From Trematomus loennbergii (Eukaryota > Chordata > Actinopteri > Perciformes > Nototheniidae), in assembly GCA_012861695.1 (NCBI GenBank), contig JAAOOA010000055.1, forward strand, positions 1,207,712 to 1,271,711: a DNA stretch of 64,000 nt. The letters run 5' to 3'. The notes under the pieces are model-generated. The model searched no databases. It was not told where the DNA came from and saw nothing but the letters and a program-made list of their open reading frames with translations. Shown here piece by piece: positions 15,831 through 55,451 of this stretch (positions are counted from its first letter, which is position 1; each line of letters starts with the position of its first letter). A program made the translations under genes and the position numbers.

Positions 15831-15858
15831 AAGTAACACATTTGTTTGTGTGAAACCA

Positions 15859-16529
15859 GCTCCGTTCCTGTACTCAACCCTCTGAAGATGGTGTCATTGT
15901 GGCGTCACCCTCCCCAGCCAGAGCTGATTGACAGTGTTGATGATCTTCCCTGCGCCAAGTATTTTCATCTGGAAGCCAGAAAATGACAATTTGATGGGAC
16001 GGCTGAGGAACAACTACACTCTGCCGTGTATTGACGGCTGTGCTCAGCCTCAATTGCCTCTGCTGGTGTTGGTAGGCCTCGTGTGATTGTCGGCATCACC
16101 GGACAGTACTACTTGCTGTCTTCAAGGCTCTGCTGCAAAGTCTGCCGGAAGAGGTGGTATGCCGACAACCCATCCTGGCTGGAAAAGCTCCCCAAGAGGT
16201 TCACCAACCTGCTGCCAGCAGTACTGACTTACAAGAAAGCCATCTGTAAGTCGGTACTGGACGAGCTCAGGCGCACCGGTAAGTCACCCACTGATATGGC
16301 AAAGCAGATCACGGAGATGATGCACCTGATATATGAACGGGCTGACCTGGCGTACCTCCTCAGCTGTAAGAACATCATGGATGGTGAGGAAGGAAAGTAC
16401 GACCAGAAGACAATTACCCAGTTCCTTCGGCAATTGTCTCCCTTTGGAGAGTATGGGGACTCTGATGGCTGGAACGGGATCTCTGTGTCTGCACACTACC
16501 TGACAGACTGCCTCCTGTGTGTCTGTTAA
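15859..16529 (+). pseudogene. Array gene copy 1 (5'-truncated; only the end of exon 4)
   Basis: The first copy begins inside exon 4 at the left array border, so promoter, exons 1-3 and the poly-proline tract are absent. It has the short 14-base-deleted form of the hotspot and lacks one A near 16051 (CCTCAATTG rather than CCTCAAATTG), which breaks the upstream frame again. From 16083 the C-terminal domain is open to TAA at 16529. It carries Ile for the usual Lys (HLIYERAD) and has lost the AATAAA signal (TTATAAAAAGATG). Confidence 0.85.
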
Positions 16530-17877
16530 TGCCAAATTGTCATCCTTTCTGTTGTTTATAAAAAGATGTTTTCTTGATTCATATCTACATGTCTCATTCA
16601 TAAGTAAATGATTTATACTACATGGTCCATATCTTAAATATAAATAATACCTTCTGAGTTTTTCTTTATATTTAAATAAATATAAACACAATAACAGTTA
16701 CTATAACACATTAGGATAAGATGTTTTCTTGATTAATATATACATGTCTCATTCATAAGTAAATGATTTATACTACATGGTCCATATCTTAAATATAAAT
16801 AATACCTTCTGAGTTTTTCTTTTGAAGGTAATAAATAAATATAAACACAATACAGTTACTATAACACATTAGGATTCACATTTCTTGATTCATAGATAGC
16901 TCTTTATCTTTGATAATGTATCACAGACTTTGCCCCAACCGGGTGTCGAACCTGCGAACAGAAGAAATCTCAGCTGGCTAAGACGGCGGTTCACAGCTTC
17001 AGTAATGCTGCAATTTTATTGGCTGTCCTAAGCACGTCTCGCATTGGCTGTCACTCTATGCCACCTAAGCACGTCTCGCATTGGCTGTCACTCTATGCCA
17101 CCTAAGCACGTCTTCCCTCTGCGGGGGAAATGTTTGCGAAAAACGTGTATGAAATGTCCGAAAACGGACCAATGTCTGTGATTCTATAGATTTATCAGTC
17201 CAGAAACGGGACATTTATCTGTTCCAGCCCAGAACCTCCACCCCGCTGCGGGACCCGTGGTATTATAATAATATATTATATATATATATTATAATTTAGT
17301 TGAATTAAGAGTGCGAGTCTCTACATTAGGTTAGTTATTATAGCTTTATTTCTTTATAATTATTAAATATAAAACACAGAATTTGTGTGACTATATTAAA
17401 CTGCCTCTGGCAGTGTGCATTCATTGTTTTGAAATTAGAGTAGATGTCTTAGATATTATATTATTATTACAGTTATTACTCAATCAGCAAAAAAAATAAT
17501 TATTTAACAATAATAATATAATATCTAACACATCCACTATAATTTAAAACATTTAAATTCACAGTGCCAGAGGCTGTTTTCGAACCCTGGCTTTCCACAC
17601 CAAGGGGCGACACTTATCTACCAACACCACCCTTTGGCCTAAAGCTCATTAAACATAAGTCTTATTTATACTGCAGTAACGGGACCTTTTCCTTTCTTTT
17701 CTCCGTCAAAAATTAACAAACGACCCCTCAAATAGCATCTACAGATCAAGACGAAGCTAATGGAAGTACTCCCGGAGACCTAGCGTGGGAAGACATGTTT
17801 GGATTATTTCATGATTTTTTAATGGAAGCAACAAACCAGTCCCATTCATTCTCTATGGCACTGTTGAACCAGAGCCG

Positions 17878-20169
17878 ATGTCATATATATTTGGCCGCTT
17901 CTTTTCAACTCTGGACATTACGACCAAATTATAAGGTAAGTTAAGTTATATTAACATGAATTAACAGAGAAGCGACATGTAATGTTATGTTATCTGGGCT
18001 TTGTCTGACGTGTTTTAGTTTAAATATAAAATAAAATACGCTATAAAGTGGTCCGTGTTTCCTACGTGTATCGAGTCTAACGGTACTTTGGGATGAATTA
18101 CATTGTTAATGTAAAGTTAATTCAACTTAAGCCGCTTAAAGTTCATGTGGTAGGATTTCTGTGTGAGTTTATTGTGTTTTTGTTGACTTGGTGAGGCGCA
18201 ATTACCGCGAGTTACTTGTGGCGAAATCCTCCGTGCGCGTTTACATTAATGTATATTTAAATATATAAATTAACGCTAACTACCATGTAAGATTACCATT
18301 AACTCCCGTATTATTTTCCAATAAACCGGGGTTAGATATACTAACCCATCACTGTTACAAAACACAGCGTGGGACAAGTTAACAGCAGTTTACTTTTGGA
18401 TAAAAAAGTATTATGTATATTCAGCTGTGCCGTTGCCCAGACGGGGTTAAATATACATAATAGATGCAGACACACACACACACACTGCTAAACACCAGAA
18501 CTGTTGAAACCACATCCATAACATTCATCTACTACTTAGTAATTATTTATCTAATATATCATTCAGCCTTGGTTGAGCTCCCTTGTTAGTTAAAAGGGTT
18601 TGACCCATGGGGGAGGGGTAATGGAAGTGTAAATAGTTTCAACAAACACACAGCTCCAGACATACAGGAACAAAGATCAACAATATCTGATCCAAAGTAA
18701 AATAGCACTACATATATCATAGCACAATGTGAATGTGCAGACAGTTAAAGTCTGCTCTCTATTAGACCCCACCTGTGAACATCATTAACTCACTGATATA
18801 TATTTTCTTCTTGACAGATCAAATGCAAAAATCTTTTGGCTATCCCTCCATGCAGCCCCTGCTCTTCCTGTAAAGAGACTTGTGCCCTACCAAAGGAGCT
18901 GATGTTTCTGATGCCGGAACCATCCGCCCCAACACCAACAGAGACCAACATCACTGTTCCAGGTGTGTATATGTTTGACTCTTTGCACCTGTACAGTTTG
19001 CTGACTACAGTGAAGATGCTAAGCGTCATACAACATTATTTCTTTATTTTACTGTTGATAATAATGACATGTTTTAATATTTTCTATAGTGGCTCCTGAG
19101 ATTTCTGCAGAGCCCTGTCAACCGACACTGCATCCACCAGCTGCACCAACACAAAGTGAGTAATAATAACAATACATCACATTTTTGAGGCACCTTCAAG
19201 TGTTTGAATGTTTCTCATTTGGATGTGTACTTGCTAGAAATCATTTTTCACAAAATCACACACACACACAATATCGTAATTATTTGCCATGTGTTTTTAT
19301 TATTGTCTGCCTAGGTCAGCCATTACCCAGGCCATCAACGGTCCCAGCTGTCCTCCTCCTCCTCCTCCCCTCCCCTCCTCCTCCTCCTCCTCCTCCTCAG
19401 CTTCCTGCCTACAACCAGGATGTCAGTCAGTGGAACTGTTCGCCTCAGCAGAGGACCTGGATGAAGACGGAGCTGGAATCCATGGGGCTCTGGCCAAGCT
19501 CCGTTCCTGTACTCAACCCTCTGAAGATGGTGTCATTGTGGCGTCACCCTCCCCAGCCAGAGCTGATTGACAGTGTTGATGATCTTCCCTGCGCCAAGTA
19601 TTTTCATCTGGAAGCCAGAAAATGACAATTTGATGGGACGGCTGAGGAACAACTACACTCTGCCGGTGTATTGACGGCTGTGCTCAGCCTCAAATTGCCT
19701 CTGCTGGTGTTGGTAGGCCTCGTGTGATTGTCGGCATCACCGGACAGTACTACTTGCTGTCTTCAAGGCTCTGCTGCAAAGTCTGCCGGAAGAGGTGGTA
19801 TGCCGACAACCCATCCTGGCTGGAAAAGCTCCCCAAGAGGTTCACCAACCTGCTGCCAGCAGTACTGACTTACAAGAAAGCCATCTGTAAGTCGGTACTG
19901 GACGAGCTCAGCGCACCGGTAAGTCACCCACTGATATGGCGAAGCAGATCACGGAGATGATGCACCTGAAATATGAACGGGCTGACCTGGCGTACCTCCT
20001 CAGCTGTAAGAACATCATGGATGGTGAGGAAGGAAAGTACGACCAGAAGACAATTACCCAGTTCCTTCGGCAATTGTCTCCCTTTGGAGAGTATGGGGAC
20101 TCTGATGGCTGGAACGGGATCTCTGTGTCTGCACACTACCTGACAGACTGCCTCCTGTGTGTCTGTTAA
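17878..20169 (+). pseudogene. Array gene copy 2 (multiple frameshifts)
   Basis: Exons 17878-17935, 18818-18962, 19090-19155 and 19315-20169. Relative to copy 5 it lacks one T in exon 1 and one C in exon 2 (GTGCCCTACC). It has a disordered CCT tract with CCCC runs, the 14-base-deleted hotspot at ~19598, one extra G near 19665 and one missing G near 19911. Splice sites are kept. It lacks the 88-bp exon-1 segment. It cannot encode the full protein as written. Confidence 0.85.
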
Positions 20170-21518: not shown

Positions 21519-23814
21519 ATGTCATATATATTTGGCCGCTTCTTTTTCAACTCTGGACATTACGACCAAATTATAAGGTAAGTTAAGTTATATTAACATG
21601 AATTAACAGAGAAGCGACATGTAATGTTATGTTATCTGGGCTTTGTCTGACGTGTTTTAGTTTAAATATAAAATAAAAATACGCTATAAAGTGGTCCGTG
21701 TTTCCTACGTGTATCGAGTCTAACGGTACTTTGGGATGAATTACATTGTTAATGTAAAGTTAATTCAACTTAAGCCGCTTAAAGTTCATGTGGTAGGATT
21801 TCTGTGTGAGTTTATTGTGTTTTTGTTGACTTGGTGAGGCGCAATTACCGCGAGTTACTTGTGGCGAAATCCTCCGTGCGCGTTTACATTAATGTATATT
21901 TAAATATATAAATTAACGCTAACTACCATGTAAGATTACCATTAACTCCCGTATTATTTTCCAATAAACCGGGGTTAGATATACTAACCCATCACTGTTA
22001 CAAAACACAGCGTGGGGACAAGTTAACAGCAGTTTACTTTTGGATAAAAAAGTATTATGTATATTCAGCTGTGCCGTTGCCCAGACGGGGTTAAATATAC
22101 ATAATAGATGCAGACACACACACCACACACTGCTAAACACCAGAACTGTTGAAACCACATCCATAACATTCATCTACTACTTAGTAATTATTTATCTAAT
22201 ATATCATTCAGCCTTGGTTGAGCTCCCTTTGTTAGTTAAAAGGGTTTGACCCATGGGGGAGGGGTAATGGAAGTGTAAATAGTTTCAACAACACACAGCT
22301 CCAGACATACAGGAACAAAGATCAACAATATCTGATCCAAAGTAAAATAGCACTACATATATCATAGCACAATGTGAATGTGCAGACAGTTAAAGTCTGC
22401 TCTCTATTAGACCCACCTGTGAACATCATTAACTCACTGATATATATTTTCTTCTTGACAGATCAAATGCAAAAATCTTTTGGCTATCCCTCCATGCAGC
22501 CCCTGCTCTTCCTGTAAAGAGACTTGTGCCCCTACCAAAGGAGCTGATGTTTCTGATGCCGGAACCATCCGCCCCAACACCAACAGAGACCAACATCACT
22601 GTTCCAGGTGTGTATATGTTTGACTCTTTGCACCTTGTACAGTTTGCTGACTACAGTGAAGATGCTAAGCGTCATACAACATTATTTCTTTATTTTACTG
22701 TTGATAATAATGACATGTTTTAATATTTTCTATAGTGGCTCCTGAGATTTCTGCAGAGCCCTGTCAACCGACACTGCATCCACCAGCTGCACCAACACAA
22801 AGTGAGTAATAATAACAATACATCACATTTTTGAGGCACCTTCAAGTGTTTGAATGTTTCTCATTTGGATGTGTACTTGCTAGAAATCATTTTTCACAAA
22901 ATCACACACACACAATATCGTAATTATTTGCCATGTGTTTTTATTTATTGTCTGCCTAGGTCAGCCATTACCCAGGCCATCAACGGTCCCCAGCTGTCCT
23001 CCTCCTCCTCCTCCTCCTCCTCCTCCTCCTCCTCCTCCTCCTCAGCTTCCTGACCTACAACCAGGATGTCAGTCAGTGGAACTGTTCGCCTCAGCAGAGG
23101 ACCTGGATGAAGACGGAGCTGGAATCCATGGGGCTCTGGCCAAGCTCCGTTCCTGTACTCAACCCTCTGAAGATGGTGTCATTGTGGCGTCACCCTCCCC
23201 AGCCAGAGCTGATTGACAGTGTTGATGATCTTCCCTGCGCCAAGTATTTTCATCTGGAAGCCAGAAAATGACAATTTGATGGGACGGCTGAGGAACAACT
23301 ACACTCTGCCGTGTATTGACGGCTGTGCTCAGCCTCAAATTGCCTCTGCTGGTGTTGGTAGGCCTCGTGTGATTGTCGGCATCACCGGACAGTACTACTT
23401 GCTGTCTTCAAGGCTCTGCTGCAAAGTCTGCCGGAAGAGGTGGTATGCCGACAACCCATCCTGGCTGGAAAAGCTCCCAAGAGGTTCACCAACCTGCTGC
23501 CAGCAGTACTGACTTACAAGAAAGCCATCTGTAAGTCGGTACTGGACGAGCTCAGGCGCACCGGTAAGTCACCCACTGATATGGCAAAGCAGATCACGGA
23601 GATGATGCACCTGAAATATGAACGGGCTGACCTGGCGTACCTCCTCAGCTGTAAGAACATCATGGATGGTGAGGAAGGAAAGTACGACCAGAAGACAATT
23701 ACCCAGTTCCTTCGGCAATTGTCTCCCTTTGGAGAGTATGGGGACTCTGATGGCTGGAACGGGATCTCTGTGTCTGCACACTACCTGACAGACTGCCTCC
23801 TGTGTGTCTGTTAA
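21519..23814 (+). pseudogene. Array gene copy 3
   Basis: Exons 21519-21577, 22462-22607, 22736-22801 and 22960-23814. Exons 1-3 are in frame and the poly-proline run has 15 CCT codons. Exon 4 has an extra A just after the tract (CTTCCTGACCTAC, ~23052), the 14-base-deleted hotspot near 23250 and one missing C near 23477. No 88-bp segment in exon 1. Broken in three places in exon 4. Confidence 0.85.
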
Positions 23815-25165: not shown

Positions 25166-27466
25166 ATGTCATATATATTTGGCCGCTTCTTTTCAACTCT
25201 GGACATTACGACCAAATTATAAGGTAAGTTAAGTTATATTAACATGAATTAACAGAGAAGCGACATGTAATGTTATGTTATCTGGGCTTTGTCTGACGTG
25301 TTTTAGTTTAAATATAAAATAAAATACGCTATAAAGTGGTCCGTGTTTCCTACGTGTATCGAGTCTAACGGTACTTTGGGATGAATTACATTGTTAATGT
25401 AAAGTTAATTCAACTTAAGCCGCTTAAAGTTCATGTGGTAGGATTTCTGTGTGAGTTTATTGTGTTTTTGTTGACTTGGTGAGGCGCAATTACCGCGAGT
25501 TACTTGTGGCGAAATCCTCCGTGCGCGTTTACATTAATGTATATTTAAATATATAAATTAACGCTAACTACCATGTAAGATTACCATTAACTCCCGTATT
25601 ATTTTCCAATAAACCGGGGTTAGATATACTAACCCATCACTGTTACAAAACACAGCGTGGGGACAAGTTAACAGCAGTTTACTTTTGGATAAAAAAGTAT
25701 TATGTATATTCAGCTGTGCCGTTGCCCAGACGGGGTTAAATATACATAATAGATGCAGACACACACACACACACTGCTAAACACCAGAACTGTTGAAACC
25801 ACATCCATAACATTCATCTACTACTTAGTAATTATTTATCTAATATATCATTCAGCCTTGGTTGAGCTCCCTTTGTTAGTTAAAAGGGTTTGACCCATGG
25901 GGGAGGGGTAATGGAAGTGTAAATAGTTTCAACAAACACACAGCTCCAGACATACAGGAACAAAGATCAACAATATCTGATCCAAAGTAAAATAGCACTA
26001 CATATATCATAGCACAATGTGAATGTGCAGACAGTTAAAGTCTGCTCTCTATTAGACCCCACCTGTGAACATCATTAACTCACTGATATATATTTTCTTC
26101 TTGACAGATCAAATGCAAAAATCTTTTGGCTATCCCTCCATGCAGCCCCTGCTCTTCCTGTAAAGAGACTTGTGCCCCTACCAAAGGAGCTGATGTTTCT
26201 GATGCCGGAACCATCCGCCCCAACACCAACAGAGACCAACATCACTGTTCCAGGTGTGTATATGTTTGACTCTTTGCACCTTGTACAGTTTGCTGACTAC
26301 AGTGAAGATGCTAAGCGTCATACAACATTATTTCTTTATTTTACTGTTGATAATAATGACATGTTTTAATATTTTCTATAGTGGCTCCTGAGATTTCTGC
26401 AGAGCCCTGTCAACCGACACTGCATCCACCAGCTGCACCAACACAAAGTGAGTAATAATAACAATACATCACATTTTTGAGGCACCTTCAAGTGTTTGAA
26501 TGTTTCTCATTTGGATGTGTACTTGCTAGAAATCATTTTTCACAAAATCACACACACACACAATATCGTAATTATTTGCCATGTGTTTTTATTTATTGTC
26601 TGCCTAGGTCAGCCATTACCCAGGCCATCAACGGTCCCCAGCTGTCCTCCTCCTCCTCCTCCTCCTCCTCCTCCTCCTCCTCCTCCTCCTCCTCAGCTTC
26701 CTGCCTACAACCAGGATGTCAGTCAGTGGAACTGTTCGCCTCAGCAGAGGACCTGGATGAAGACGGAGCTGGAATCCATGGGGCTCTGGCCAAGCTCCGT
26801 TCCTGTACTCAACCCTCTGAAGATGGTGTCATTGTGGCGTCACCCTCCCCAGCCAGAGCTGATTGACAGTGTTGATGATCTTCCCTGCGCCAAGTATTTT
26901 TCATCTGGAAGCCAGAAAATGACAATTTGATGGGACGGCTGAGGAACAACTACACTCTGCCGTGTATTGACGGCTGTGCTCAGCCTCAAATTGCCTCTGC
27001 TGGTGTTGGTAGGCCTCGTGTGATTGTCGGCATCACCGGACAGTACTACTTGCTGTCTTCAAGGCTCTGCTGCAAAGTCTGCCGGAAGAGGTGGTATGCC
27101 GACAACCCATCCTGGCTGGAAAAGCTCCCCAAGAGGTTCACCAACCTGCTGCCAGCAGTACTGACTTACAAGAAAGCCATCTGTAAGTCGGTACTGGACG
27201 AGCTCAGGCGCACCGGTAAGTCACCCACTGATATGGCAAAGCAGATCACGGAGATGATGCACCTGAAATATGAACGGGCTGACCTGGCGTACCTCCTCAG
27301 CTGTAAGAACATCATGGATGGTGAGGAAGGAAAGTACGACCAGAAGACAATTACCCAGTTCCTTCGGCAATTGTCTCCCTTTGGAGAGTATGGGGACTCT
27401 GATGGCTGGAACGGGATCTCTGTGTCTGCACACTACCTGACAGACTGCCTCCTGTGTGTCTGTTAA
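25166..27466 (+). pseudogene. Array gene copy 4
   Basis: Exon 1 (25166-25223) lacks one T. Exon 2 begins at 26108 and exon 4 at 26608, with 16 CCT codons. The hotspot reads AAGTATTTTTCATCTGG near 26895 and throws the frame, so the long frame ends at 26930 instead of joining the C-terminal domain. The C-terminal domain itself is open to 27466. No 88-bp segment. Confidence 0.85.
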
Positions 27467-28814: not shown

Positions 28815-31125
28815 ATGTCATATATATTTGGCCGCTTCTTTTTCAACTCTGGACATTACGACCAAATTATAAGGTAAGTTAAGTTATATTAACATGAATT
28901 AACAGAGAAGCGACATGTAATGTTATGTTATCTGGGCTTTGTCTGACGTGTTTTAGTTTAAATATAAAATAAAATACGCTATAAAGTGGTCCGTGTTTCC
29001 TACGTGTATCGAGTCTAACGGTACTTTGGGATGAATTACATTGTTAATGTAAAGTTAATTCAACTTAAGCCGCTTAAAGTTCATGTGGTAGGATTTCTGT
29101 GTGAGTTTATTGTGTTTTTGTTGACTTGGTGAGGCGCAATTACCGCGAGTTACTTGTGGCGAAATCCTCCGTGCGCGTTTACATTAATGTATATTTAAAT
29201 ATATAAATTAACGCTAACTACCATGTAAGATTACCATTAACTCCCGTATTATTTTCCAATAAACCGGGGTTAGATATACTAACCCATCACTGTTACAAAA
29301 CACAGCGTGGGGACAAGTTAACAGCAGTTTACTTTTGGATAAAAAAGTATTATGTATATTCAGCTGTGCCGTTGCCCAGACGGGGTTAAATATACATAAT
29401 AGATGCAGACACACACACACACACACTGCTAAACACCAGAACTGTTGAAACCACATCCATAACATTCATCTACTACTTAGTAATTATTTATCTAATATAT
29501 CATTCAGCCTTGGTTGAGCTCCCTTTGTTAGTTAAAAGGGTTTGACCCATGGGGGAGGGGTAATGGAAGTGTAAATAGTTTCAACAAACACACAGCTCCA
29601 GACATACAGGAACAAAGATCAACAATATCTGATCCAAAGTAAAATAGCACTACATATATCATAGCACAATGTGAATGTGCAGACAGTTAAAGTCTGCTCT
29701 CTATTAGACCCCACCTGTGAACATCATTAACTCACTGATATATATTTTCTTCTTGACAGATCAAATGCAAAAATCTTTTGGCTATCCCTCCATGCAGCCC
29801 CTGCTCTTCCTGTAAAGAGACTTGTGCCCCTACCAAAGGAGCTGATGTTTCTGATGCCGGAACCATCCGCCCCAACACCAACAGAGACCAACATCACTGT
29901 TCCAGGTGTGTATATGTTTGACTCTTTGCACCTTGTACAGTTTGCTGACTACAGTGAAGATGCTAAGCGTCATACAACATTATTTCTTTATTTTACTGTT
30001 GATAATAATGACATGTTTTAATATTTTCTATAGTGGCTCCTGAGATTTCTGCAGAGCCCTGTCAACCGACACTGCATCCACCAGCTGCACCAACACAAAG
30101 TGAGTAATAATAACAATACATCACATTTTTGAGGCACCTTCAAGTGTTTGAATGTTTCTCATTTGGATGTGTACTTGCTAGAAATCATTTTTCACAAAAT
30201 CACACACACACACAATATCGTAATTATTTGCCATGTGTTTTTATTTATTGTCTGCCTAGGTCAGCCATTACCCAGGCCATCAACGGTCCCCAGCTGTCCT
30301 CCTCCTCCTCCTCCTCCTCCTCCTCCTCCTCCTCCTCCTCCTCCTCCTCAGCTTCCTGCCTACAACCAGGATGTCAGTCAGTGGAACTGTTCGCCTCAGC
30401 AGAGGACCTGGATGAAGACGGAGCTGGAATCCATGGGGCTCTGGCCAAGCTCCGTTCCTGTACTCAACCCTCTGAAGATGGTGTCATTGTGGCGTCACCC
30501 TCCCCAGCCAGAGCTGATTGACAGTGTTGATGATCTTCCCTGCGCCAAGCTCCATTTTTTCATCTGGAAGCCAGAAAATGACAATTTGATGGGACGGCTG
30601 AGGAACAACTACACTCTGCCGTGTATTGACGGCTGTGCTCAGCCTCAAATTGCCTCTGCTGGTGTTGGTAGGCCTCGTGTGATTGTCGGCATCACCGGAC
30701 AGTACTACTTGCTGTCTTCAAGGCTCTGCTGCAAAGTCTGCCGGAAGAGGTGGTATGCCGACAACCCATCCTGGCTGGAAAAGCTCCCCAAGAGGTTCAC
30801 CAACCTGCTGCCAGCAGTACTGACTTACAAGAAAGCCATCTGTAAGTCGGTACTGGACGAGCTCAGGCGCACCGGTAAGTCACCCACTGATATGGCAAAG
30901 CAGATCACGGAGATGATGCACCTGAAATATGAACGGGCTGACCTGGCGTACCTCCTCAGCTGTAAGAACATCATGGATGGTGAGGAAGGAAAGTACGACC
31001 AGAAGACAATTACCCAGTTCCTTCGGCAATTGTCTCCCTTTGGAGAGTATGGGGACTCTGATGGCTGGAACGGGATCTCTGTGTCTGCACACTACCTGAC
31101 AGACTGCCTCCTGTGTGTCTGTTAA
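28815..31125 (+). CDS. Array gene copy 5: only copy with a fully open frame; uncharacterised protein
   Basis: Exons 28815-28873, 29760-29905, 30034-30099 and 30260-31125 (59+146+66+866 nt) join in phase to 378 residues plus stop, and all junctions are GT/AG. The start is the first in-frame ATG after an upstream TGA (MSYIFGRFFFNSGHYDQ). The N-terminal ~90 residues are Pro/Thr-rich, followed by 17 consecutive prolines and a Trp-rich linker. The C-terminal ~220 residues hold an FFIWKPE block, two cysteine pairs (LPCIDGC and CCKVC) that could bind zinc, and a helical stretch with FTNLLPAVLTYKKAICKSV. The layout recalls a domain of large transposase-like fish proteins (from memory, Pfam DUF6729), of which this would be only the N-terminal part. 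An AATAAA lies 31 bases after the stop. Function unknown. An out-of-frame upstream ATG overlaps exon 1. Confidence 0.75.
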
Positions 31126-31155
31126 TGCCAAATTGTCATCCTTTCTGTTGTTTAT

Positions 31156-31161
31156 AATAAA
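31156..31161 (+). terminator. AATAAA polyadenylation signal of array gene copy 5
   Basis: A canonical AATAAA lies 31 bases after the stop codon of the open copy. It is present at the same place in the other copies except copy 1, where it has changed. Each unit thus appears to end its own transcript. Confidence 0.6.
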
Positions 31162-31162
31162 G

Positions 31163-31484: not shown

Positions 31485-31526
31485 GATTCATAGATAGCTC
31501 TTTATCTTTGATAATGTATCACAGAC

Positions 31527-31600
31527 TTTGCCCCAACCGGGTGTCGAACCTGCGAACAGAAGAAATCTCAGCTGGCTAAGACGGCGGTTCACAGCTTCAG
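31527..31600 (-). repeat. tRNA-like remnant 1 in each array unit (shown for unit 5)
   Basis: On the minus strand the segment has a perfect B-box match (GGTTCGACACC) preceded by an A-box-like CTTAGCCAGCTG. The spacing between boxes is only about 18 bases and the T-stem does not pair well. It looks like a decayed tRNA or tRNA-derived SINE head rather than a working tRNA gene. It is conserved in all units. Confidence 0.4.
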
Positions 31601-31610
31601 TAATGCTGCA

Positions 31611-36192: not shown

Positions 36193-38570
36193 ATGTCAGA
36201 TATATTGGCCGCTGCCGTGAGTGGCGCTGTGGCGCACTTTTGCCATGAGCTCTCCTTCAGTGAATGAGAGAGAGCTTCACAGCGACGTAAATGCATACAT
36301 CTTTTTCAACTCTGGACATTACGACCAAATTATAAGGTAAGTTAAGTTATATTAACATGAATTAACAGAGAAGCGACATGTAATGTTATGTTATCTGGGC
36401 TTTGTCTGACGTGTTTTAGTTTAAATATAAAATAAAATACGCTATAAAGTGGTCCGTGTTTCCTACGTGTATCGAGTCTAACGGTACTTTGGGATGAATT
36501 ACATTGTTAATGTAAAGTTAATTCAACTTAAGCCGCTTAAAGTTCATGTGGTAGGATTTCTGTGTGAGTTTATTGTGTTTTTGTTGACTTGGTGAGGCGC
36601 AATTACCGCGAGTTACTTGTGGCGAAATCCTCCGTGCGCGTTTACATTAATGTATATTTAAATATATAAATTAACGCTAACTACCATGTAAGATTACCAT
36701 TAACTCCCGTATTATTTTCCAATAAACCGGGGTTAGATATACTAACCCATCACTGTTACAAAACACAGCGTGGGGACAAGTTAACAGCAGTTTACTTTTG
36801 GATAAAAAAGTATTATGTATATTCAGCTGTGCCGTTGCCCAGACGGGGTTAAATATACATAATAGATGCAGACACACACACACACACTGCTAAACACCAG
36901 AACTGTTGAAACCACATCCATAACATTCATCTACTACTTAGTAATTATTTATCTAATATATCATTCAGCCTTGGTTGAGCTCCCTTTGTTAGTTAAAAGG
37001 GTTTGACCCATGGGGGAGGGGTAATGGAAGTGTAAATAGTTTCAACAAACACACAGCTCCAGACATACAGGAACAAAGATCAACAATATCTGATCCAAAG
37101 TAAAATAGCACTACATATATCATAGCACAATGTGAATGTGCAGACAGTTAAAGTCTGCTCTCTATTAGACCCCACCTGTGAACATCATTAACTCACTGAT
37201 ATATATTTTCTTCTTGACAGATCAAATGCAAAAATCTTTTGGCTATCCCTCCATGCAGCCCCTGCTCTTCCTGTAAAGAGACTTGTGCCCCTACCAAAGG
37301 AGCTGATGTTTCTGATGCCGGAACCATCCGCCCCAACACCAACAGAGACCAACATCACTGTTCCAGGTGTGTATATGTTTGACTCTTTGCACCTTGTACA
37401 GTTTGCTGACTACAGTGAAGATGCTAAGCGTCATACAACATTATTTCTTTATTTTACTGTTGATAATAATGACATGTTTAATATTTTCTATAGTGGCTCC
37501 TGAGATTTCTGCAGAGCCCTGTCAACCGACACTGCATCCACCAGCTGCACCAACACAAAGTGAGTAATAATAACAATACATCACATTTTTGAGGCACCTT
37601 CAAGTGTTTGAATGTTTCTCATTTGGATGTGTACTTGCTAGAAATCATTTTTCACAAAATCACACACACACACAATATCGTAATTATTTGCCATGTGTTT
37701 TTATTTATTGTCTGCCTAGGTCAGCCATTACCCAGGCCATCAACGGTCCCCAGCTGTCCTCCTCCTCCTCCTCCTCCTCCTCCTCCTCCTCCTCCTCCTC
37801 CTCCTCGCCTACAACCAGGATGTCAGTCAGTGGAACTGTTCGCCTCAGCAGAGGACCTGGATGAAGACGGAGCTGGAATCCATGGGGCTCTGGCCAAGCT
37901 CCGTTCCTGTACTCAACCCTCTGAAGATGGTGTCATTGTGGCGTCACCCTCCCCAGCCAGAGCTGATTGACAGTGTTGATGATCTTCCCTGCGCCAAGTA
38001 TTGCTCATCTGGAAGCCAGAAAATGACAATTTGATGGGACGGCTGAGGAACAACTACACTCTGCCGTGTATTGACGGCTGTGCTCAGCCTCAAATTGCCT
38101 CTGCTGGTGTTGGTAGGCCTCGTGTGATTGTCGGCATCACCGGACAGTACTACTTGCTGTCTTCAAGGCTCTGCTGCAAAGTCTGCCGGAAGAGGTGGTA
38201 TGCCGACAACCCATCCTGGCTGGAAAAGCTCCCCAAGAGGTTCACCAACCTGCTGCCAGCAGTACTGACTTACAAGAAAGCCATCTGTAAGTCGGTACTG
38301 GACGAGCTCAGGCGCACCGGTAAGTCACCCACTGATATGGCAAAGCAGATCACGGAGATGATGCACCTGAAATATGAACGGGCTGACCTGGCGTACCTCC
38401 TCAGCTGTAAGAACATCATGGATGGTGAGGAAGGAAAGTACGACCAGAAGACAATTACCCAGTTCCTTCGGCAATTGTCTCCCTTTGGAGAGTATGGGGA
38501 CTCTGATGGCTGGAACGGGATCTCTGTGTCTGCACACTACCTGACAGACTGCCTCCTGTGTGTCTGTTAA
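36193..38570 (+). pseudogene. Array gene copy 7 (long exon 1)
   Basis: Exon 1 (36193-36336) has the extra segment with several small deletions. Exon 2 is 37221-37366, exon 3 is 37494-37559 and exon 4 starts at 37720. An 8-base deletion removes AGCTTCCT right after the CCT tract (~37806). The hotspot has its own form, AAGTATTGCTCATCTGG (~38000). The C-terminal domain is open to 38570. Copies 6 and 7 share the rare CTCGCG variant upstream of exon 1 (32378, 36099), suggesting a recent common origin. Confidence 0.85.
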
Positions 38571-39920: not shown

Positions 39921-42222
39921 ATGTCATATATATTTGGCCGCTTCTTTTTCAACTCTGGACATTACGACCAAATTATAAGGTAAGTTAAGTTATATTAACA
40001 TGAATTAACAGAGAAGCGACATGTAATGTTATGTTATCTGGGCTTTGTCTGACGTGTTTTAGTTTAAATATAAAATAAAATACGCTATAAAGTGGTCCGT
40101 GTTTCCTACGTGTATCGAGTCTAACGGTACTTTGGGATGAATTACATTGTTAATGTAAAGTTAATTCAACTTAAGCCGCTTAAAGTTCATGTGGTAGGAT
40201 TTCTGTGTGAGTTTATTGTGTTTTTGTTGACTTGGTGAGGCGCAATTACCGCGAGTTACTTGTGGCGAAATCCTCCGTGCGCGTTTACATTAATGTATAT
40301 TTAAATATATAAATTAACGCTAACTACCATGTAAGATTACCATTAACTCCCGTATTATTTTCCAATAAACCGGGGTTAGATATACTAACCCATCACTGTT
40401 ACAAAACACAGCGTGGGGACAAGTTAACAGCAGTTTACTTTTGGATAAAAAAGTATTATGTATATTCAGCTGTGCCGTTGCCCAGACGGGGTTAAATATA
40501 CATAATAGATGCAGACACACACACACACACTGCTAAACACCAGAACTGTTGAAACCACATCCATAACATTCATCTACTACTTAGTAATTATTTATCTAAT
40601 ATATCATTCAGCCTTGGTTGAGCTCCCTTTGTTAGTTAAAAGGGTTTGACCCATGGGGGAGGGGTAATGGAAGTGTAAATAGTTTCAACAAACACACAGC
40701 TCCAGACATACAGGAACAAAGATCAACAATATCTGATCCAAAGTAAAATAGCACTACATATATCATAGCACAATGTGAATGTGCAGACAGTTAAAGTCTG
40801 CTCTCTATTAGACCCCACCTGTGAACATCATTAACTCACTGATATATATTTTCTTCTTGACAGATCAAATGCAAAAATCTTTTGGCTATCCCTCCATGCA
40901 GCCCCTGCTCTTCCTGTAAAGAGACTTGTGCCCCTACCAAAGGAGCTGATGTTTCTGATGCCGGAACCATCCGCCCCAACACCAACAGAGACCAACATCA
41001 CTGTTCCAGGTGTGTATATGTTTGACTCTTTGCACCTTGTACAGTTTGCTGACTACAGTGAAGATGCTAAGCGTCATACAACATTATTTCTTTATTTTAC
41101 TGTTGATAATAATGACATGTTTTAATATTTTCTATAGTGGCTCCTGAGATTTCTGCAGAGCCCTGTCAACCGACACTGCATCCACCAGCTGCACCAACAC
41201 AAAGTGAGTAATAATAACAATACATCACATTTTTGAGGCACCTTCAAGTGTTTGAATGTTTCTCATTTGGATGTGTACTTGCTAGAAATCATTTTTCACA
41301 AAATCACACACACACACAATATCGTAATTATTTGCCATGTGTTTTTATTTATTGTCTGCCTAGGTCAGCCATTACCCAGGCCATCAACGGTCCCCAGCTG
41401 TCCTCCTCCTCCTCCTCCTCCTCCTCCTCCTCCTCCTCCTCCTCCTCAGCTTCCTGCCTACAACCAGGATGTCAGTCAGTGGAACTGTTCGCCTCAGCAG
41501 AGGACCTGGATGAAGACGGAGCTGGAATCCATGGGGCTCTGGCCAAGCTCCGTTCCTGTACTCAACCCTCTGAAGATGGTGTCATTGTGGCGTCACCCTC
41601 CCCAGCCAGAGCTGATTGACAGTGTTGATGATCTTCCCTGCGCCAAGTATTTTCAGCTCCATGGAAGCCAGAAAATGACAATTTGATGGGACGGCTGAGG
41701 AACAACTACACTCTGCCGTGTATTGACGGCTGTGCTCAGCCTCAAATTGCCTCTGCTGGTGTTGGTAGGCCTCGTGTGATTGTCGGCATCACCGGACAGT
41801 ACTACTTGCTGTCTTCAAGGCTCTGCTGCAAAGTCTGCCGGAAGAGGTGGTATGCCGACAACCCATCCTGGCTGGAAAAGCTCCCCAAGAGGTTCACCAA
41901 CCTGCTGCCAGCAGTACTGACTTACAAGAAAGCCATCTGTAAGTCGGTACTGGACGAGCTCAGGCGCACCGGTAAGTCACCCACTGATATGGCAAAGCAG
42001 ATCACGGAGATGATGCACCTGAAATATGAACGGGCTGACCTGGCGTACCTCCTCAGCTGTAAGAACATCATGGATGGTGAGGAAGGAAAGTACGACCAGA
42101 AGACAATTACCCAGTTCCTTCGGCAATTGTCTCCCTTTGGAGAGTATGGGGACTCTGATGGCTGGAACGGGATCTCTGTGTCTGCACACTACCTGACAGA
42201 CTGCCTCCTGTGTGTCTGTTAA
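39921..42222 (+). pseudogene. Array gene copy 8 (one lesion only)
   Basis: Exons 39921-39979, 40864-41009, 41138-41203 and 41364-42222. Exons 1-3, the 15-codon proline run and the C-terminal domain are all open. The sole break against copy 5 is at the hotspot, where CAGCTCCATGGAAGCC (~41653) lacks about ten bases. This is the next-best candidate for a functional copy if that site is a sequence error. It has the short exon 1 but the upstream ATTCTTT variant otherwise linked to long exon 1, so it looks recombinant. Confidence 0.85.
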
Positions 42223-43569: not shown

Positions 43570-45949
43570 ATGTCATATATATTTGGCCGCTGCCGTGAGT
43601 GGCGCTGTGGCGCACTTTTGCCAGTGAGCTCTCCTTCAGTGAATGAGAGAGAGACTTCACAGCGACGTAAATGCATACATCTTTTTCAACTCTGGACATT
43701 ACGACCAAATTATAAGGTAAGTTAAGTTATATTAACATGAATTAACAGAGAAGCGACATGTAATGTTATGTTATCTGGGCTTTGTCTGACGTGTTTTAGT
43801 TTAAATATAAAATAAAATACGCTATAAAGTGGTCCGTGTTTCCTACGTGTATCGAGTCTAACGGTACTTTGGGATGAATTACATTGTTAATGTAAAGTTA
43901 ATTCAACTTAAGCCGCTTAAAGTTCATGTGGTAGGATTTCTGTGTGAGTTTATTGTGTTTTTGTTGACTTGGTGAGGCGCAATTACCGCGAGTTACTTGT
44001 GGCGAAATCCTCCGTGCGCGTTTACATTAATGTATATTTAAATATATAAATTAACGCTAACTACCATGTAAGATTACCATTAACTCCCGTATTATTTTCC
44101 AATAAACCGGGGTTAGATATACTAACCCATCACTGTTACAAAACACAGCGTGGGGACAAGTTAACAGCAGTTTACTTTTGGATAAAAAAGTATTATGTAT
44201 ATTCAGCTGTGCCGTTGCCCAGACGGGGTTAAATATACATAATAGATGCAGACACACACACACACACTGCTAAACACCAGAACTGTTGAAACCACATCCA
44301 TAACATTCATCTACTACTTAGTAATTATTTATCTAATATATCATTCAGCCTTGGTTGAGCTCCCTTTGTTAGTTAAAAGGGTTTGACCCATGGGGGAGGG
44401 GTAATGGAAGTGTAAATAGTTTCAACAAACACACAGCTCCAGACATACAGGAACAAAGATCAACAATATCTGATCCAAAGTAAAATAGCACTACATATAT
44501 CATAGCACAATGTGAATGTGCAGACAGTTAAAGTCTGCTCTCTATTAGACCCCACCTGTGAACATCATTAACTCACTGATATATATTTTCTTCTTGACAG
44601 ATCAAATGCAAAAATCTTTTGGCTATCCCTCCATGCAGCCCCTGCTCTTCCTGTAAAGAGACTTGTGCCCCTACCAAAGGAGCTGATGTTTCTGATGCCG
44701 GAACCATCCGCCCCAACACCAACAGAGACCAACATCACTGTTCCAGGTGTGTATATGTTTGACTCTTTGCACCTTGTACAGTTTGCTGACTACAGTGAAG
44801 ATGCTAAGCGTCATACAACATTATTTCTTTATTTTACTGTTGATAATAATGACATGTTTTAATATTTTCTATAGTGGCTCCTGAGATTTCTGCAGAGCCC
44901 TGTCAACCGACACTGCATCCACCAGCTGCACCAACACAAAGTGAGTAATAATAACAATACATCACATTTTTGAGGCACCTTCAAGTGTTTGAATGTTTCT
45001 CATTTGGATGTGTACTTGCTAGAAATCATTTTTCACAAAATCACACACACACACAATATCGTAATTATTTGCCATGTGTTTTATTTATTGTCTGCCTAGG
45101 TCAGCCATTACCCAGGCCATCAACGGTCCCCAGCTGTCCTCCTCTCCTCCTCTCCTCCTCCTCCTCCTCCTCCTCCTCCTCCTCAGCTTCCTGCCTACAA
45201 CCAGGATGTCAGTCAGTGGAACTGTTCGCCTCAGCAGAGGACCTGGATGAAGACGGAGCTGGAATCCATGGGGCTCTGGCCAAGCTCCGTTCCTGTACTC
45301 AACCCTCTGAAGATGGTGTCATTGTGGCGTCACCCTCCCCAGCCAGAGCTGATTGACAGTGTTGATGATCTTCCCTGCGCCAAGTTTTCATCTGGAAGCC
45401 AGAAAATGACAATTTGATGGGACGGCTGAGGAACAACTACACTCTGCCGTGTATTGACGGCTGTGCTCAGCCTCAAATTGCCTCTGCTGGTGTTGGTAGG
45501 CCTCGTGTGATTGTCGGCATCACCGGACAGTACTACTTGCTGTCTTCAAGGCTCTGCTGCAAAGTCTGCCGGAAGAGGTGGTATGCCGACAACCCATCCT
45601 GGCTGGAAAAGCTCCCCAAGAGGTTCACCAACCTGCTGCCAGCAGTACTGATTACAAAAAGCCATCTGTAAGTCGGTACTGGACGAGCTCAGGCGCACCG
45701 GTAAGTCACCCACTGATATGGCGAAGCAGATCACGGAGATGATGCACCTGAAATATGAACGGGCTGACCTGGCGTACCTCCTCAGCTGTAAGAACATCAT
45801 GGATGGTGAGGAAGGAAAGTACGACCAGAAGACAATTACCCAGTTCCTTCGGCAATTGTCTCCCTTTGGAGAGTATGGGGACTCTGATGGCTGGAACGGG
45901 ATCTCTGTGTCTGCACACTACCTGACAGACTGCCCTGTGTGTCTGTTAA
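43570..45949 (+). pseudogene. Array gene copy 9 (long exon 1, most degraded)
   Basis: Exon 1 (43570-43716) has the full 88-bp segment. Exon 2 is 44601-44746, exon 3 is 44875-44940 and exon 4 starts at 45100. The CCT tract is interrupted (CTCCTCTCCTCCTCTCC), the hotspot is AAGTTTTCATCTGG (~45385), two bases are lost at ACTGATTACAAAAAGC (~45653), and the final codons lose two bases (TGCCCTGTG) before the TAA at 45947-45949. It shares the GGCGAAGC variant with copy 2. Confidence 0.85.
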
Positions 45950-47302: not shown

Positions 47303-49618
47303 ATGTCATATATATTTGGCCGCTTCTTTTTCACTCTGGACATTACGACCAAATTATAAGGTAAGTTAAGTTATATTAACATGAATTAACAGAGAAGCGA
47401 CATGTAATGTTATGTTATCTGGGCTTTGTCTGACGTGTTTTAGTTTAAATATAAAATAAAATACGCTATAAAGTGGTCCGTGTTTCCTACGTGTATCGAG
47501 TCTAACGGTACTTTGGGATGAATTACATTGTTAATGTAAAGTTAATTCAACTTAAGCCGCTTAAAGTTCATGTGGTAGGATTTCTGTGTGAGTTTATTGT
47601 GTTTTTGTTGACTTGGTGAGGCGCAATTACCGCGAGTTACTTGTGGCGAAATCCTCCGTGCGCGTTTACATTAATGTATATTTAAATATATAAATTAACG
47701 CTAACTACCATGTAAGATTACCATTAACTCCCGTATTATTTTCCAATAAACCGGGGTTAGATATACTAACCCATCACTGTTACAAAACACAGCGTGGGGA
47801 CAAGTTAACAGCAGTTTACTTTTGGATAAAAAAGTATTATGTATATTCAGCTGTGCCGTTGCCCAGACGGGGTTAAATATACATAATAGATGCAGACACA
47901 CACACACACACTGCTAAACACCAGAACTGTTGAAACCACATCCATAACATTCATCTACTACTTAGTAATTATTTATCTAATATATCATTCAGCCTTGGTT
48001 GAGCTCCCTTTGTTAGTTAAAAGGGTTTGACCCATGGGGGAGGGGTAATGGAAGTGTAAATAGTTTCAACAAACACACAGCTCCAGACATACAGGAACAA
48101 AGATCAACAATATCTGATCCAAAGTAAAATAGCACTACATATATCATAGCACAATGTGAATGTGCAGACAGTTAAAGTCTGCTCTCTATTAGACCCCACC
48201 TGTGAACATCATTAACTCACTGATATATATTTTCTTCTTGACAGATCAAATGCAAAAATCTTTTGGCTATCCCTCCATGCAGCCCCTGCTCTTCCTGTAA
48301 AGAGACTTGTGCCCCTACCAAAGGAGCTGATGTTTCTGATGCCGGAACCATCCGCCCCAACACCAACAGAGACCAACATCACTGTTCCAGGTGTGTATAT
48401 GTTTGACTCTTTGCACCTTGTACAGTTTGCTGACTACAGTGAAGATGCTAAGCGTCATACAACATTATTTCTTTATTTTACTGTTGATAATAATGACATG
48501 TTTTAATATTTTCTATAGTGGCTCCTGAGATTTCTGCAGAGCCCTGTCAACCGACACTGCATCCACCAGCTGCACCAACACAAAGTGAGTAATAATAACA
48601 ATACATCACATTTTTGAGGCACCTTCAAGTGTTTGAATGTTTCTCATTTGGATGTGTACTTGCTAGAAATCATTTTTCACAAAATCACACACACACACAA
48701 TATCGTAATTATTTGCCATGTGTTTTTATTTATTGTCTGCCTAGGTCAGCCATTACCCAGGCCATCAACGGTCCCCAGCTGTCCTCCTCCTCCTCCTCCT
48801 CCTCCTCCTCCTCCTCCTCCTCCTCCTCCTCCTCAGCTTCCTGCCTACAACCAGGATGTCAGTCAGTGGAACTGTTCGCCTCAGCAGAGGACCTGGATGA
48901 AGACGGAGCTGGAATCCATGGGGCTCTGGCCAAGCTCCGTTCCTGTACTCAACCCTCTGAAGATGGTGTCATTGTGGCGTCACCCTCCCCAGCCAGAGCT
49001 GATTGACAGTGTTGATGATCTTCCCTGCGCCAAGTATTTTCAGCTCCATTTTTCATCTGGAAGCCAGAAAATGACAATTTGATGGGACGGCTGAGGAACA
49101 ACTACACTCTGCCGTGTATTGACGGCTGTGCTCAGCCTCAAATTGCCTCTGCTGGTGTTGGTAGGCCTCGTGTGATTGTCGGCATCACCGGACAGTACTA
49201 CTTGCTGTCTTCAAGGCTCTGCTGCAAAGTCTGCCGGAAGAGGTGGTATGCCGACAACCCATCCTGGCTGGAAAAGCTCCCCAAGAGGTTCACCAACCTG
49301 CTGCCAGCAGTACTGACTTACAAGAAAGCCATCTGTAAGTCGGTACTGGACGAGCTCAGGCGCACCGGTAAGTCACCCACTGATATGGCAAAGCAGATCA
49401 CGGAGATGATGCACCTGAAATATGAACGGGCTGACCTGGCGTACCTCCTCAGCTGTAAGAACATCATGGATGGTGAGGAAGGAAAGTACGACCAGAAGAC
49501 AATTACCCAGTTCCTTCGGCAATTGTCTCCCTTTGGAGAGTATGGGGACTCTGATGGCTGGAACGGGATCTCTGTGTCTGCACACTACCTGACAGACTGC
49601 CTCCTGTGTGTCTGTTAA
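47303..49618 (+). pseudogene. Array gene copy 10
   Basis: Exon 1 (47303-47360) lacks one A. Exons 2 (48245-48390), 3 (48519-48584) and 4 (from 48745) keep splice sites, with 17 CCT codons. The hotspot is the longest form seen (TATTTTCAGCTCCATTTTTC, ~49036) and differs from a full in-frame version by one T in the T-run. This copy best shows what the ancestral hotspot may have looked like. The C-terminal domain is open to 49618. Confidence 0.85.
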
Positions 49619-50970: not shown

Positions 50971-53359
50971 ATGTCATATATATTTGGCCGCTGCCGTGAG
51001 TGGCGCTGTGGCGCACTTTTGCCAGTGAGCTCTCCTTCAGTGAATGAGAGAGAGACTTCACAGCGACGTAAATGCATACATCTTTTTCAACTCTGGACAT
51101 TACGACCAAATTATAAGGTAAGTTAAGTTATATTAACATGAATTAACAGAGAAGCGACATGTAATGTTATGTTATCTGGGCTTTGTCTGACGTGTTTTAG
51201 TTTAAATATAAAATAAAATACGCTATAAAGTGGTCCGTGTTTCCTACGTGTATCGAGTCTAACGGTACTTTGGGATGAATTACATTGTTAATGTAAAGTT
51301 AATTCAACTTAAGCCGCTTAAAGTTCATGTGGTAGGATTTCTGTGTGAGTTTATTGTGTTTTTGTTGACTTGGTGAGGCGCAATTACCGCGAGTTACTTG
51401 TGGCGAAATCCTCCGTGCGCGTTTACATTAATGTATATTTAAATATATAAATTAACGCTAACTACCATGTAAGATTACCATTAACTCCCGTATTATTTTC
51501 CAATAAACCGGGGTTAGATATACTAACCCATCACTGTTACAAAACACAGCGTGGGGACAAGTTAACAGCAGTTTACTTTTGGATAAAAAAGTATTATGTA
51601 TATTCAGCTGTGCCGTTGCCCAGACGGGGTTAAATATACATAATAGATGCAGACACACACACACACACTGCTAAACACCAGAACTGTTGAAACCACATCC
51701 ATAACATTCATCTACTACTTAGTAATTATTTATCTAATATATCATTCAGCCTTGGTTGAGCTCCCTTTGTTAGTTAAAAGGGTTTGACCCATGGGGGAGG
51801 GGTAATGGAAGTGTAAATAGTTTCAACAAACACACAGCTCCAGACATACAGGAACAAAGATCAACAATATCTGATCCAAAGTAAAATAGCACTACATATA
51901 TCATAGCACAATGTGAATGTGCAGACAGTTAAAGTCTGCTCTCTATTAGACCCCACCTGTGAACATCATTAACTCACTGATATATATTTTCTTCTTGACA
52001 GATCAAATGCAAAAATCTTTTGGCTATCCCTCCATGCAGCCCCTGCTCTTCCTGTAAAGAGACTTGTGCCCCTACCAAAGGAGCTGATGTTTCTGATGCC
52101 GGAACCATCCGCCCCAACACCAACAGAGACCAACATCACTGTTCCAGGTGTGTATATGTTTGACTCTTTGCACCTTGTACAGTTTGCTGACTACAGTGAA
52201 GATGCTAAGCGTCATACAACATTATTTCTTTATTTTACTGTTGATAATAATGACATGTTTTAATATTTTCTATAGTGGCTCCTGAGATTTCTGCAGAGCC
52301 CTGTCAACCGACACTGCATCCACCAGCTGCACCAACACAAAGTGAGTAATAATAACAATACATCACATTTTTGAGGCACCTTCAAGTGTTTGAATGTTTC
52401 TCATTTGGATGTGTACTTGCTAGAAATCATTTTTCACAAAATCACACACACACACAATATCGTAATTATTTGCCATGTGTTTTTATTTATTGTCTGCCTA
52501 GGTCAGCCATTACCCAGGCCATCAACGGTCCCCAGCTGTCCTCCTCCTCCTCCTCCTCCTCCTCCTCCTCCTCCTCCTCCTCCTCCTCAGCTTCCTGCCT
52601 ACAACCAGGATGTCAGTCAGTGGAACTGTTCGCCTCAGCAGAGGACCTGGATGAAGACGGAGCTGGAATCCATGGGGCTCTGGCCAAGCTCCGTTCCTGT
52701 ACTCAACCCTCTGAAGATGGTGTCATTGTGGCGTCACCCTCCCCAGCCAGAGCTGATTGACAGTGTTGATGATCTTCCCTGCGCCAAGTATTTTCATCTG
52801 GAAGCCAGAAAATGACAATTTGATGGGACGGCTGAGGAACAACTACACTCTGCCGTGTATTGACGGCTGTGCTCAGCCTCAAATTGCCTCTGCTGGTGTT
52901 GGTAGGCCTCGTGTGATTGTCGGCATCACCGGACAGTACTACTTGCTGTCTTCAAGGCTCTGCTGCAAAGTCTGCCGGAAGAGGTGGTATGCCGACAACC
53001 CATCCTGGCTGGAAAAGCTCCCCAAGAGGTTCACCAACCTGCTGCCAGCAGTACTGACTTACAAGAAAGCCATCTGTAAGTCGGTACTGGACGAGCTCAG
53101 GCGCACCGGTAAGTCACCCACTGATATGGCAAAGCAGATCACGGAGATGATGCACCTGAAATATGAACGGGCTGACCTGGCGTACCTCCTCAGCTGTAAG
53201 AACATCATGGATGGTGAGGAAGGAAAGTACGACCAGAAGACAATTACCCAGTTCCTTCGGCAATTGTCTCCCTTTGGAGAGTATGGGGACTCTGATGGCT
53301 GGAACGGGATCTCTGTGTCTGCACACTACCTGACAGACTGCCTCCTGTGTGTCTGTTAA
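50971..53359 (+). pseudogene. Array gene copy 11 (long exon 1)
   Basis: Exon 1 (50971-51117) has the full 88-bp segment, which shifts the frame from the usual ATG. Exons 2 (52002-52147), 3 (52276-52341) and 4 (from 52502) are otherwise regular, with 16 CCT codons. The hotspot near 52792 is the 14-base-deleted form. The C-terminal domain is open to 53359. The sequence downstream of this last full copy carries a private variant near 53941-53970. Confidence 0.85.
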
Positions 53360-54708
53360 TGCCAAATTGTCATCCTTTCTGTTGTTTATAATAAAGATGT
53401 TTTCTTGATTCATATCTACATGTCTCATTCATAAGTAAATGATTTATACTACATGGTCCATATCTTAAATATAAATAATACCTTCTGAGTTTTTCTTTAT
53501 ATTTAAATAAATATAAACACAATAACAGTTACTATAACACATTAGGATAAGATGTTTTCTTGATTAATATATACATGTCTCATTCATAAGTAAATGATTT
53601 ATACTACATGGTCCATATCTTAAATATAAATAATACCTTCTGAGTTTTTCTTTTGAAGGTAATAAATAAATATAAACACAATAACAGTTACTATAACACA
53701 TTAGGATTCACATTTCTTGATTCATAGATAGCTCTTTATCTTTGATAATGTATCACAGACTTTGCCCCAACCGGGTGTCGAACCTGCGAACAGAAGAAAT
53801 CTCAGCTGGCTAAGACGGCGGTTCACAGCTTCAGTAATGCTGCAATTTTATTGGCTGTCCTAAGCACGTCTCGCATTGGCTGTCACTCTATGCCACCTAA
53901 GCACGTCTCGCATTGGCTGTCACTCTATGCCACCTAAGCACGCATCTGTCCTCTCCACTGCGTGGGGGGAAATGTTTGCGAAAAACGTGTATGAAATGTC
54001 CGAAAACGGACCAATGTCTGTGATTCTATAGATTTATCAGTCCAGAAACGGGACATTTATCTGTTCCAGCCCAGAACCTCCACCCCGCTGCGGGACCCGT
54101 GGTATTATAATAATATATTATTATATATATTATAATTTAGTTGAATTAAGAGTGCGAGTCTCTACATTTAGGTTAGTTATTATAGCTTTATTTCTTTTAT
54201 AATTATTAAATATAAAACACAGAATTTGTGTGACTATATTAAACTGCCTCTGGCAGTGTGCATTCATTGTTTTGAAATTAGAGTAGATGTCTTAGATATT
54301 ATATTATTATTACAGTTATTACTCAATCAGCAAAAAAAATAATTATTTAACAATAATAATATAATATCTAACACATCCACTATAATTTAAAACATTTAAA
54401 TTCACAGTGCCAGAGGCTGTTTTCAAACCCTGACTTTCCACACCAAGGGGCGACACTTATCTACCAACACCACCCTTTGGCCTAAAGCTCATTGAACATA
54501 AGTCTTATTTATACTGCAGTAACGGGACCTTTTCCTTTCTTTTTCTCCGTCAAAAATTAACAAACGACCCCTCAAATAGCATCTACAGATCAAGACGAAG
54601 CTAATGGAAGTACTCCCGGAGACCTAGCGTGGGAAGACATGTTTGGATTCTTTCATGATTTTTTAATGGAAGCAACAAACCAGTCCCATTCATTCTCTAT
54701 GGCACTGT

Positions 54709-55440: not shown

Positions 55441-55451
55441 TTATATTTCAA

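Follow-up and report, generated by a model that had tools for sequence, protein, structure and literature searches.

A 64-kb stretch of contig C55 (JAAOOA010000055.1) of the fish Trematomus loennbergii, free of N and hereafter called the window, carries a tandem array of near-identical units, each of which has the look of a small spliced gene. Is this a set of ten working genes, a remnant, or a product of the assembly? The answer that we consider likely is that a truncated DUF6729 gene recently spread and was homogenised as a gene-bearing macrosatellite, which the window presents in a form blurred by assembly. The locus would most likely be a recently amplified, weakly constrained multicopy gene or remnant with drifting copy number, and not ten working genes.

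Layout of the array and content of its unit

The array runs on the forward strand from 15858, inside exon 4, to 54709, inside exon 1, within one base of the bounds originally predicted (15859-54708). It comprises 10.6 head-to-tail units of 3.64-3.75 kb (Table 1). An anchor in exon 4 recurs at 11 positions (15854, 19493, 23139, 26789, 30444, 34172, 37893, 41542, 45279, 48929 and 52683) that are 3639-3754 bp apart, in line with the regular spacing of 3.64-3.74 kb first described. The eleven copies of the original prediction resolve into ten full genes and two partial ends, exon 4 on the left and the promoter region with part of exon 1 on the right.

Pairwise alignment of the ten full periods gave ungapped identities of 99.48-99.97% (45 pairs), which bears out their near-identity; unit 1 is the most divergent. 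With kilobase identity at a fixed period, a chance model is unnecessary. Across the same 45 pairs, 720 indel events were counted against 363 substitutions (about 2:1, or 2.6:1 without unit 1). In coding sequence, the window units differ by 0.15% substitutions on average, a figure partly due to misalignment at the exon-4 motif site described below. The mean is 0.00% for the introns of the ten units and 0.23% for the ten intergenic stretches. In addition, the units differ in a patterned manner, by an 88-bp segment in exon 1 and by a TCC run. Given the identity of the units and their nearly substitution-free introns, the layout of a gene-bearing macrosatellite and its recent homogenisation both hold. 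A 37-bp minisatellite of about 2.4 copies is also present once in every unit (17027-17113 in the first).

All ten full units contain four exons bounded by canonical splice sites, as had been proposed, and AATAAA follows the stop codon at 10 of the 11 3' ends, with copy 1 as the sole exception already noted. Introns are present in all ten units, unlike the intronless copies of a processed retrogene. Exon 1 exists in two forms. The long form holds the 88-bp segment with the start MRERLHSDVNAYIFFNSGHYDQIIR and is found in units 5, 6, 8 and 10, as well as in 16 pattern-found copies on other contigs (some with small changes) and on C99. The short form, without this segment, has the start MSYIFGRFFFNSGHYDQIIR and is found in units 1-4, 7 and 9, in some cases with a one-base change.

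The encoded protein consists of a proline-rich part, DUF6729 and the end ...HYLTDCLLCVC. The unit 4 protein matches DUF6729 (PF20499) with 64.2 bits, for a Pfam cut-off of 27. Conserved C-x3-C and C-x2-C pairs in this domain suggest zinc binding, a putative activity, as is DNA binding. Hence, the "multi-exon gene of unknown function" of the original prediction is indeed multi-exon, and the Pfam match and the comparison with its parent narrow it to a truncated DUF6729 gene. A sequence search of the PDB returned two matches, with E values of 0.48 and 0.96. The structure model of the DUF6729 part (alignment A2) was poor, with a mean predicted local distance difference test score (pLDDT) of 62.6, and its Foldseek comparison with the PDB gave 18 matches with E ≤ 10, none with E ≤ 0.001. 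A model of the family alignment A1 was also poor (mean pLDDT 42.6) and was not used. ARAGORN, run with bacterial settings, and Rfam at its gathering thresholds returned nothing in the window, and with permissive Rfam settings one unit yielded three hits, each below its gathering score.

Derivation from a full-length DUF6729 gene

The two best protein matches are notothenioid, which upholds a fish origin. P0001 from Pagothenia borchgrevinki, whose cluster has 12 member sequences, matches at 95% over 87% of the query and has the same truncated end; P0002 from Pogonophryne albipinna matches at 88%. The lower-ranked P0090 from Chaenocephalus aceratus reaches 93% over a third of the query. Among the matches listed, many ray-finned fishes have longer relatives, many of them 1000-1150 residues long, and the clusters often hold several sequences. 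All ten relatives scanned with Pfam, five of which are 1000-1150 residues long, contain DUF6729.

Pieces of the full-length gene are found in the same genome. Contig C33, read as two pieces with the 5.5 kb between them outside the comparison, aligns with residues 24-207 and 517-1148 of P0139 (Gymnodraco acuticeps). Seventy-three bp past the last P0139-like piece, C33 matches the last codons, the stop and the 3' region of the unit (86% over 254 bp and 95% over 321 bp). Contig C150 has an exon, MDQNEELEQ..., that is absent from the unit; the intron on the left of this exon matches the unit (97% over 58 bp), as does a 3' stretch (75% over 101 bp). Overall, the unit shares with the full-length family, represented by P0139, the DUF6729 domain, the exons before it and the 3' flank of a full-length copy. 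It differs from this family by the absence of the MDQNEELEQ exon and of the residues after about 330. Judged from these alignments, the unit gene is an internally deleted derivative of the family of about 1150 residues, with its N-terminus and DUF6729 kept and fused to the 3' untranslated region (UTR) of the parent, because the unit lacks the C150 exon and its sequence after YLTDCLL corresponds to the former 3' end of the parent, as seen on C33.

A search for the exon 3/intron junction returned 33 places. The window accounts for 10 of them and 15 other contigs for the remaining 23; a reversed-pattern control gave none. A tandem spacing of about 3.75 kb is also seen on C2109 and C127, and C1836 and C1918 carry tandem units of 5.6 kb, in which 1.9 kb of inserted sequence lengthens the 3' part of the gene unit (comparisons of copies outside the window exclude the hit contigs C31, C1256, C1582, C3546 and C660). 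Relative to C99, introns (up to 1171 bp) have no substitution in 22 of the 25 aligned copies; the poly-proline tract was masked in this alignment, from which one partial copy on C2326 and the copy C127b are left out. On C127 (20904000-20923999), the promoter part alone is present in five tandem copies of 655-680 bp.

In the scenario that we favour, a full-length DUF6729 gene (about 1150 residues, multicopy in ray-finned fishes) lost an upstream exon and everything after DUF6729, as the sequence shows. The leftover frame runs into the old 3' UTR and gives a protein of 377-389 residues, the introns and the poly(A) signal being kept. This truncated unit would have spread to several places and then grown in tandem by unequal exchange and/or gene conversion (a mechanism that we infer, the identity being what is observed). 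The amplification would be recent, because the introns show almost no substitutions. The array of the window would then mix two forms of exon 1 and, probably, two alleles of exon 4, one intact and one with the 17-bp deletion, all blurred by the assembly. Its true length would depend on the haplotype or have been left ambiguous by the assembly.

Several observations weigh against this scenario. At least one of the 23 outside places, that on C33, is a full-length gene, so that the count overstates the spread. Some of the other contigs are haplotigs or duplicates (C1836 and C2326 are 99.6% identical over 23 kb; C2109 and C31 match at the same coordinates) and the places are therefore not independent loci. 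Three of the 25 aligned copies carry 2-4 intron substitutions relative to C99, and C99 itself has a different 3' end. For the C99 copy compared with the C150 remnant, which is itself decayed, the ratio of nonsynonymous to synonymous substitution rates (dN/dS) is 0.57 (16 synonymous and 34 nonsynonymous changes, 260 codons), a weak sign of constraint. Finally, the spliced exon 3-4 junction was found nowhere in the assembly with up to two mismatches (33 places for the unspliced control), so that no processed copies point to germline expression. A dN/dS of 1.14 for C99 against C47 was discarded, as it covers only 55 codons ahead of a frameshift.

Broken frames, copy number and rival explanations

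On the assembled letters, the original prediction of a complete small spliced gene in every unit does not stand. The frame is open in one of the ten window units (unit 4, 378 residues) and shifted in the nine others; further intact frames may be hidden by consensus error. Intact copies do exist on other contigs, where 6 of the 16 copies with an exon-1 start are open over 377-389 residues (one on C286, two on C1836, two on C2326 and one on C99). One C2109 copy loses the frame only near its end. These 16 copies come partly from one locus and are not independent; the count leaves out C47, C150 and C127b, whose piece lacks exon 1 and is open over exons 2-4.

The motif YFQLHPFFIWKPE of exon 4 is near-invariant in 30 relatives. 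None of the 11 window copies has it intact. They carry seven alleles, with a 17-bp deletion common to five copies and different lesions in the other six. On the other contigs, 14 of the 18 pattern-found copies are intact, three have the 17-bp deletion (both C1336 copies and one of the two on C286) and one is a base short (C1918); the remaining copy on C1918 gave no match to the pattern, nor did C150 and C111. The 17-bp deletion sits between TTTTCA repeats. Because most of the odd window alleles are intermediate in length between the intact and the 17-bp-deleted forms, they probably result from consensus calling over a mixture of both. Several of them are in units (3, 4, 7, 9 and 10) that have no one-base indel elsewhere. 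Nuclease or element footprints were set aside, though not excluded, as a source of the exon-4 lesions. Homopolymers of at least 3, which account for 34.5% of the positions, hold 33 of the 46 one-base indels counted over the 25 aligned copies, as expected from long-read consensus error.

The left flank of the window recurs on C1336 and C286 with an identical junction, AAACCAGCTCCGTTCC. A single 12-bp indel, with no substitution, separates C1336 from C286 over 7.7 kb; between the window and C1336 there are 2 substitutions and 8 indels in 4 kb. From these comparisons, C1336 and C286 look like the other haplotype of the window locus. Their arrays have about 1.5 units followed by other sequence, against 10.6 units on C55 for the same left junction. 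They come near the one or two units that the original prediction named as the sign of an artefact. Either the copy number is polymorphic between haplotypes, or the assembler collapsed one array or extended the other. The 40 places scored for a 2-kb piece of the right flank of C286 include matches on C2109, C1256 and C31 but none on C55.

The alternative that survives best, to which we give a minor but real chance, is that the array length and most of the frame breaks are assembly artefacts. A real array of about 1.5 units would have been over-extended, or chained from several loci, with consensus errors on top. The short arrays that share the left flank and junction on C286 and C1336 fit this explanation, as do the location of the repeat near the contig end on C286, C1336, C2109, C1918 and C2326, the excess of indels over substitutions among window units, the clustering of one-base indels at homopolymers, and the recurrence of part of the window right flank twice more on C55. 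However, the window contains no N, and five of its ten gene bodies have no one-base indel outside the poly-proline tract. Moreover, tandem copies with 3.75- and 5.6-kb spacing are present on other contigs, and the patterned differences between units mean that they are not copies of one read.

It is rather unlikely that the amplified DUF6729-only protein is selected, its many copies being kept for their dosage or to compete with the full-length protein. The open frames of six copies on other contigs and of P. borchgrevinki would be in keeping with selection, and so would the poly-proline tract, which varies by whole codons among the six open copies. On the other hand, the copies are too recent for their intactness to count as independent evidence, and dN/dS is 0.57. 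As assembled, 9 of the ten window units and 10 of the 16 other copies are out of frame.

We regard as unlikely, a shade more so, that the unit is a non-autonomous mobile element, that is, an internally deleted transposon moved as a block and then tandemly repeated. Near-zero divergence between contigs, introns included, and the multicopy nature of the family in many fishes are consistent with mobility. The C-terminal part of the full-length family also holds a D-x-x-H stretch (DLFH), which we take, as a hint only, to resemble DDE transposases. Yet the array ends fall inside exon 4 and exon 1, similarity to the unit breaks at other points on C99 and C47, and its ends differ from contig to contig (terminal repeats and target duplications of the unit were not searched for systematically). 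Among the ten Pfam-scanned relatives, a transposase domain is present only in the gene model P0129, where DDE_Tnp_4 lies at the far end and may belong to a fused neighbour. The relative P0073 has PF05485, presumably the THAP domain, in its precomputed Pfam list.

More speculatively, and at a low probability, a transposase-like fish gene might have been reduced to its putative zinc- and DNA-binding part, the array supplying a DNA-binding-only protein (or RNA) that competes with the full-length family. The KP deletion product, which competes with the P element, is the model for such a competitor; in that case, repression of the parent family would be adjusted by copy number. Least probable of all is that the exon-4 site is a recurrent break point at which copies were broken and rejoined independently: seven alleles in 11 copies, some in units otherwise lacking one-base indels, and two additional residues at the same place in P0011 of P. 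borchgrevinki would agree with this, but most odd alleles are intermediate, as a consensus over mixed reads would produce, TTTTCA repeats flank the 17-bp deletion, and only intact and 17-bp-deleted forms plus one 1-base variant were pattern-found outside the window.

The truncated and homogenised macrosatellite that we favour can be compared with known arrays. D4Z4 carries DUX4 and DXZ4 is a CTCF-bound unit; the likeness to them is one of layout only, with kilobase units that are head to tail and near identical; their copy number is unstable, as may be that of the window array. The best likeness is to the primate ELOA3 tandem cluster, which has a protein-coding unit derived from an older parent gene, homogenised within lineages and, as may hold for the window array, variable in copy number between haplotypes (PMC10664989). 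In contrast, ELOA3 is described as an intronless retrogene that keeps its frame in 97% of copies (228/234; PMC10664989), whereas the window units have four exons, derive from an internal deletion and are in frame in 1/10 cases as assembled. Antifreeze gene arrays of polar fishes are similar in their tandem layout and assembly uncertainty and show copy-number differences between haplotypes; they differ in their gene and in having a known, antifreeze, function (PMC13032017, PMC13131655). A literature search for the term DUF6729 returned no paper, and one on fish, teleost and cryonotothenioid macrosatellites returned none on this locus among the matches listed. In this fish case of a gene-bearing macrosatellite with a multi-exon unit, one genome records the parent gene, the truncation and the sister copies. 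The locus also illustrates how arrays of this kind can mislead: genes look broken and the copy number is uncertain where units are near identical, one site has two or more real alleles and some contigs are probable haplotigs.

Features of the array and its flanks

Table 1 Features of the tandem array and its immediate borders (window coordinates)
Feature	Position	Strand	Remark
DDE_Tnp_4 transposase remnant	15180-15635	-	immediately left of array
Partial first copy	15858-16530	+	exon 4 cut off, AATAAA lost
Unit 1 gene, exons 1-4	17878-20169	+	frameshifted
Unit 2 gene	21519-23814	+	frameshifted
Unit 3 gene	25166-27466	+	frameshifted
Unit 4 gene	28815-31125	+	sole open frame in window, 378 residues
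Unit 4 exons	28815-28873, 29760-29905, 30034-30099, 30260-31125	+	
Unit 4 motif site (YFQLHPFFIWKPE)	30550-30564	+	lesioned yet in frame, reads KLHFFIWKPE
Unit 5 gene	32475-34848	+	long exon 1, frameshifted
Unit 6 gene	36193-38570	+	long exon 1, frameshifted
Unit 7 gene	39921-42222	+	frameshifted at motif site
Unit 8 gene	43570-45949	+	long exon 1, frameshifted
Unit 9 gene	47303-49618	+	frameshifted
Unit 10 gene	50971-53359	+	long exon 1, frameshifted at motif site
Last 3' UTR, promoter region, partial exon 1	53360-54709	+	array right end
High-copy repeat adjoining array right end	54723-55648		39 other places among 40 scored, 98-99%

The high-copy repeat at the right border (about 925 bp) also adjoins units on C1836 and C2326. 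Further right, the flank at 58300-60150, which presumably holds MDH1B exons, has two further matches on C55, a partial one at 1278610 (98%) and an inverted one at 1727766 (99%); this is either a segmental duplication or a misassembly.

On the left, an insertion at about 6429-9190 is flanked by GACTACAA twice and has a clean empty site on C1336 and C286, so that it is polymorphic between contigs. It contains an open frame of 644 residues (7081-9012, minus strand) with zf-C2H2_12, and with DUF4371 below the cut-off; by our reading, this insertion would be hAT-like. An open frame of 337 residues at 3584-4594 (minus strand) encodes HTH_Tnp_Tc3_2 and DDE_3, of Tc1/mariner type. The DDE_Tnp_4 remnant that borders the array is, we assume, of Harbinger type. 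Kinase exons lie at 15-736 (minus strand), with Pfam PK_Tyr_Ser-Thr on 377-736, and we take them to be PTK2/PTK2B-like.

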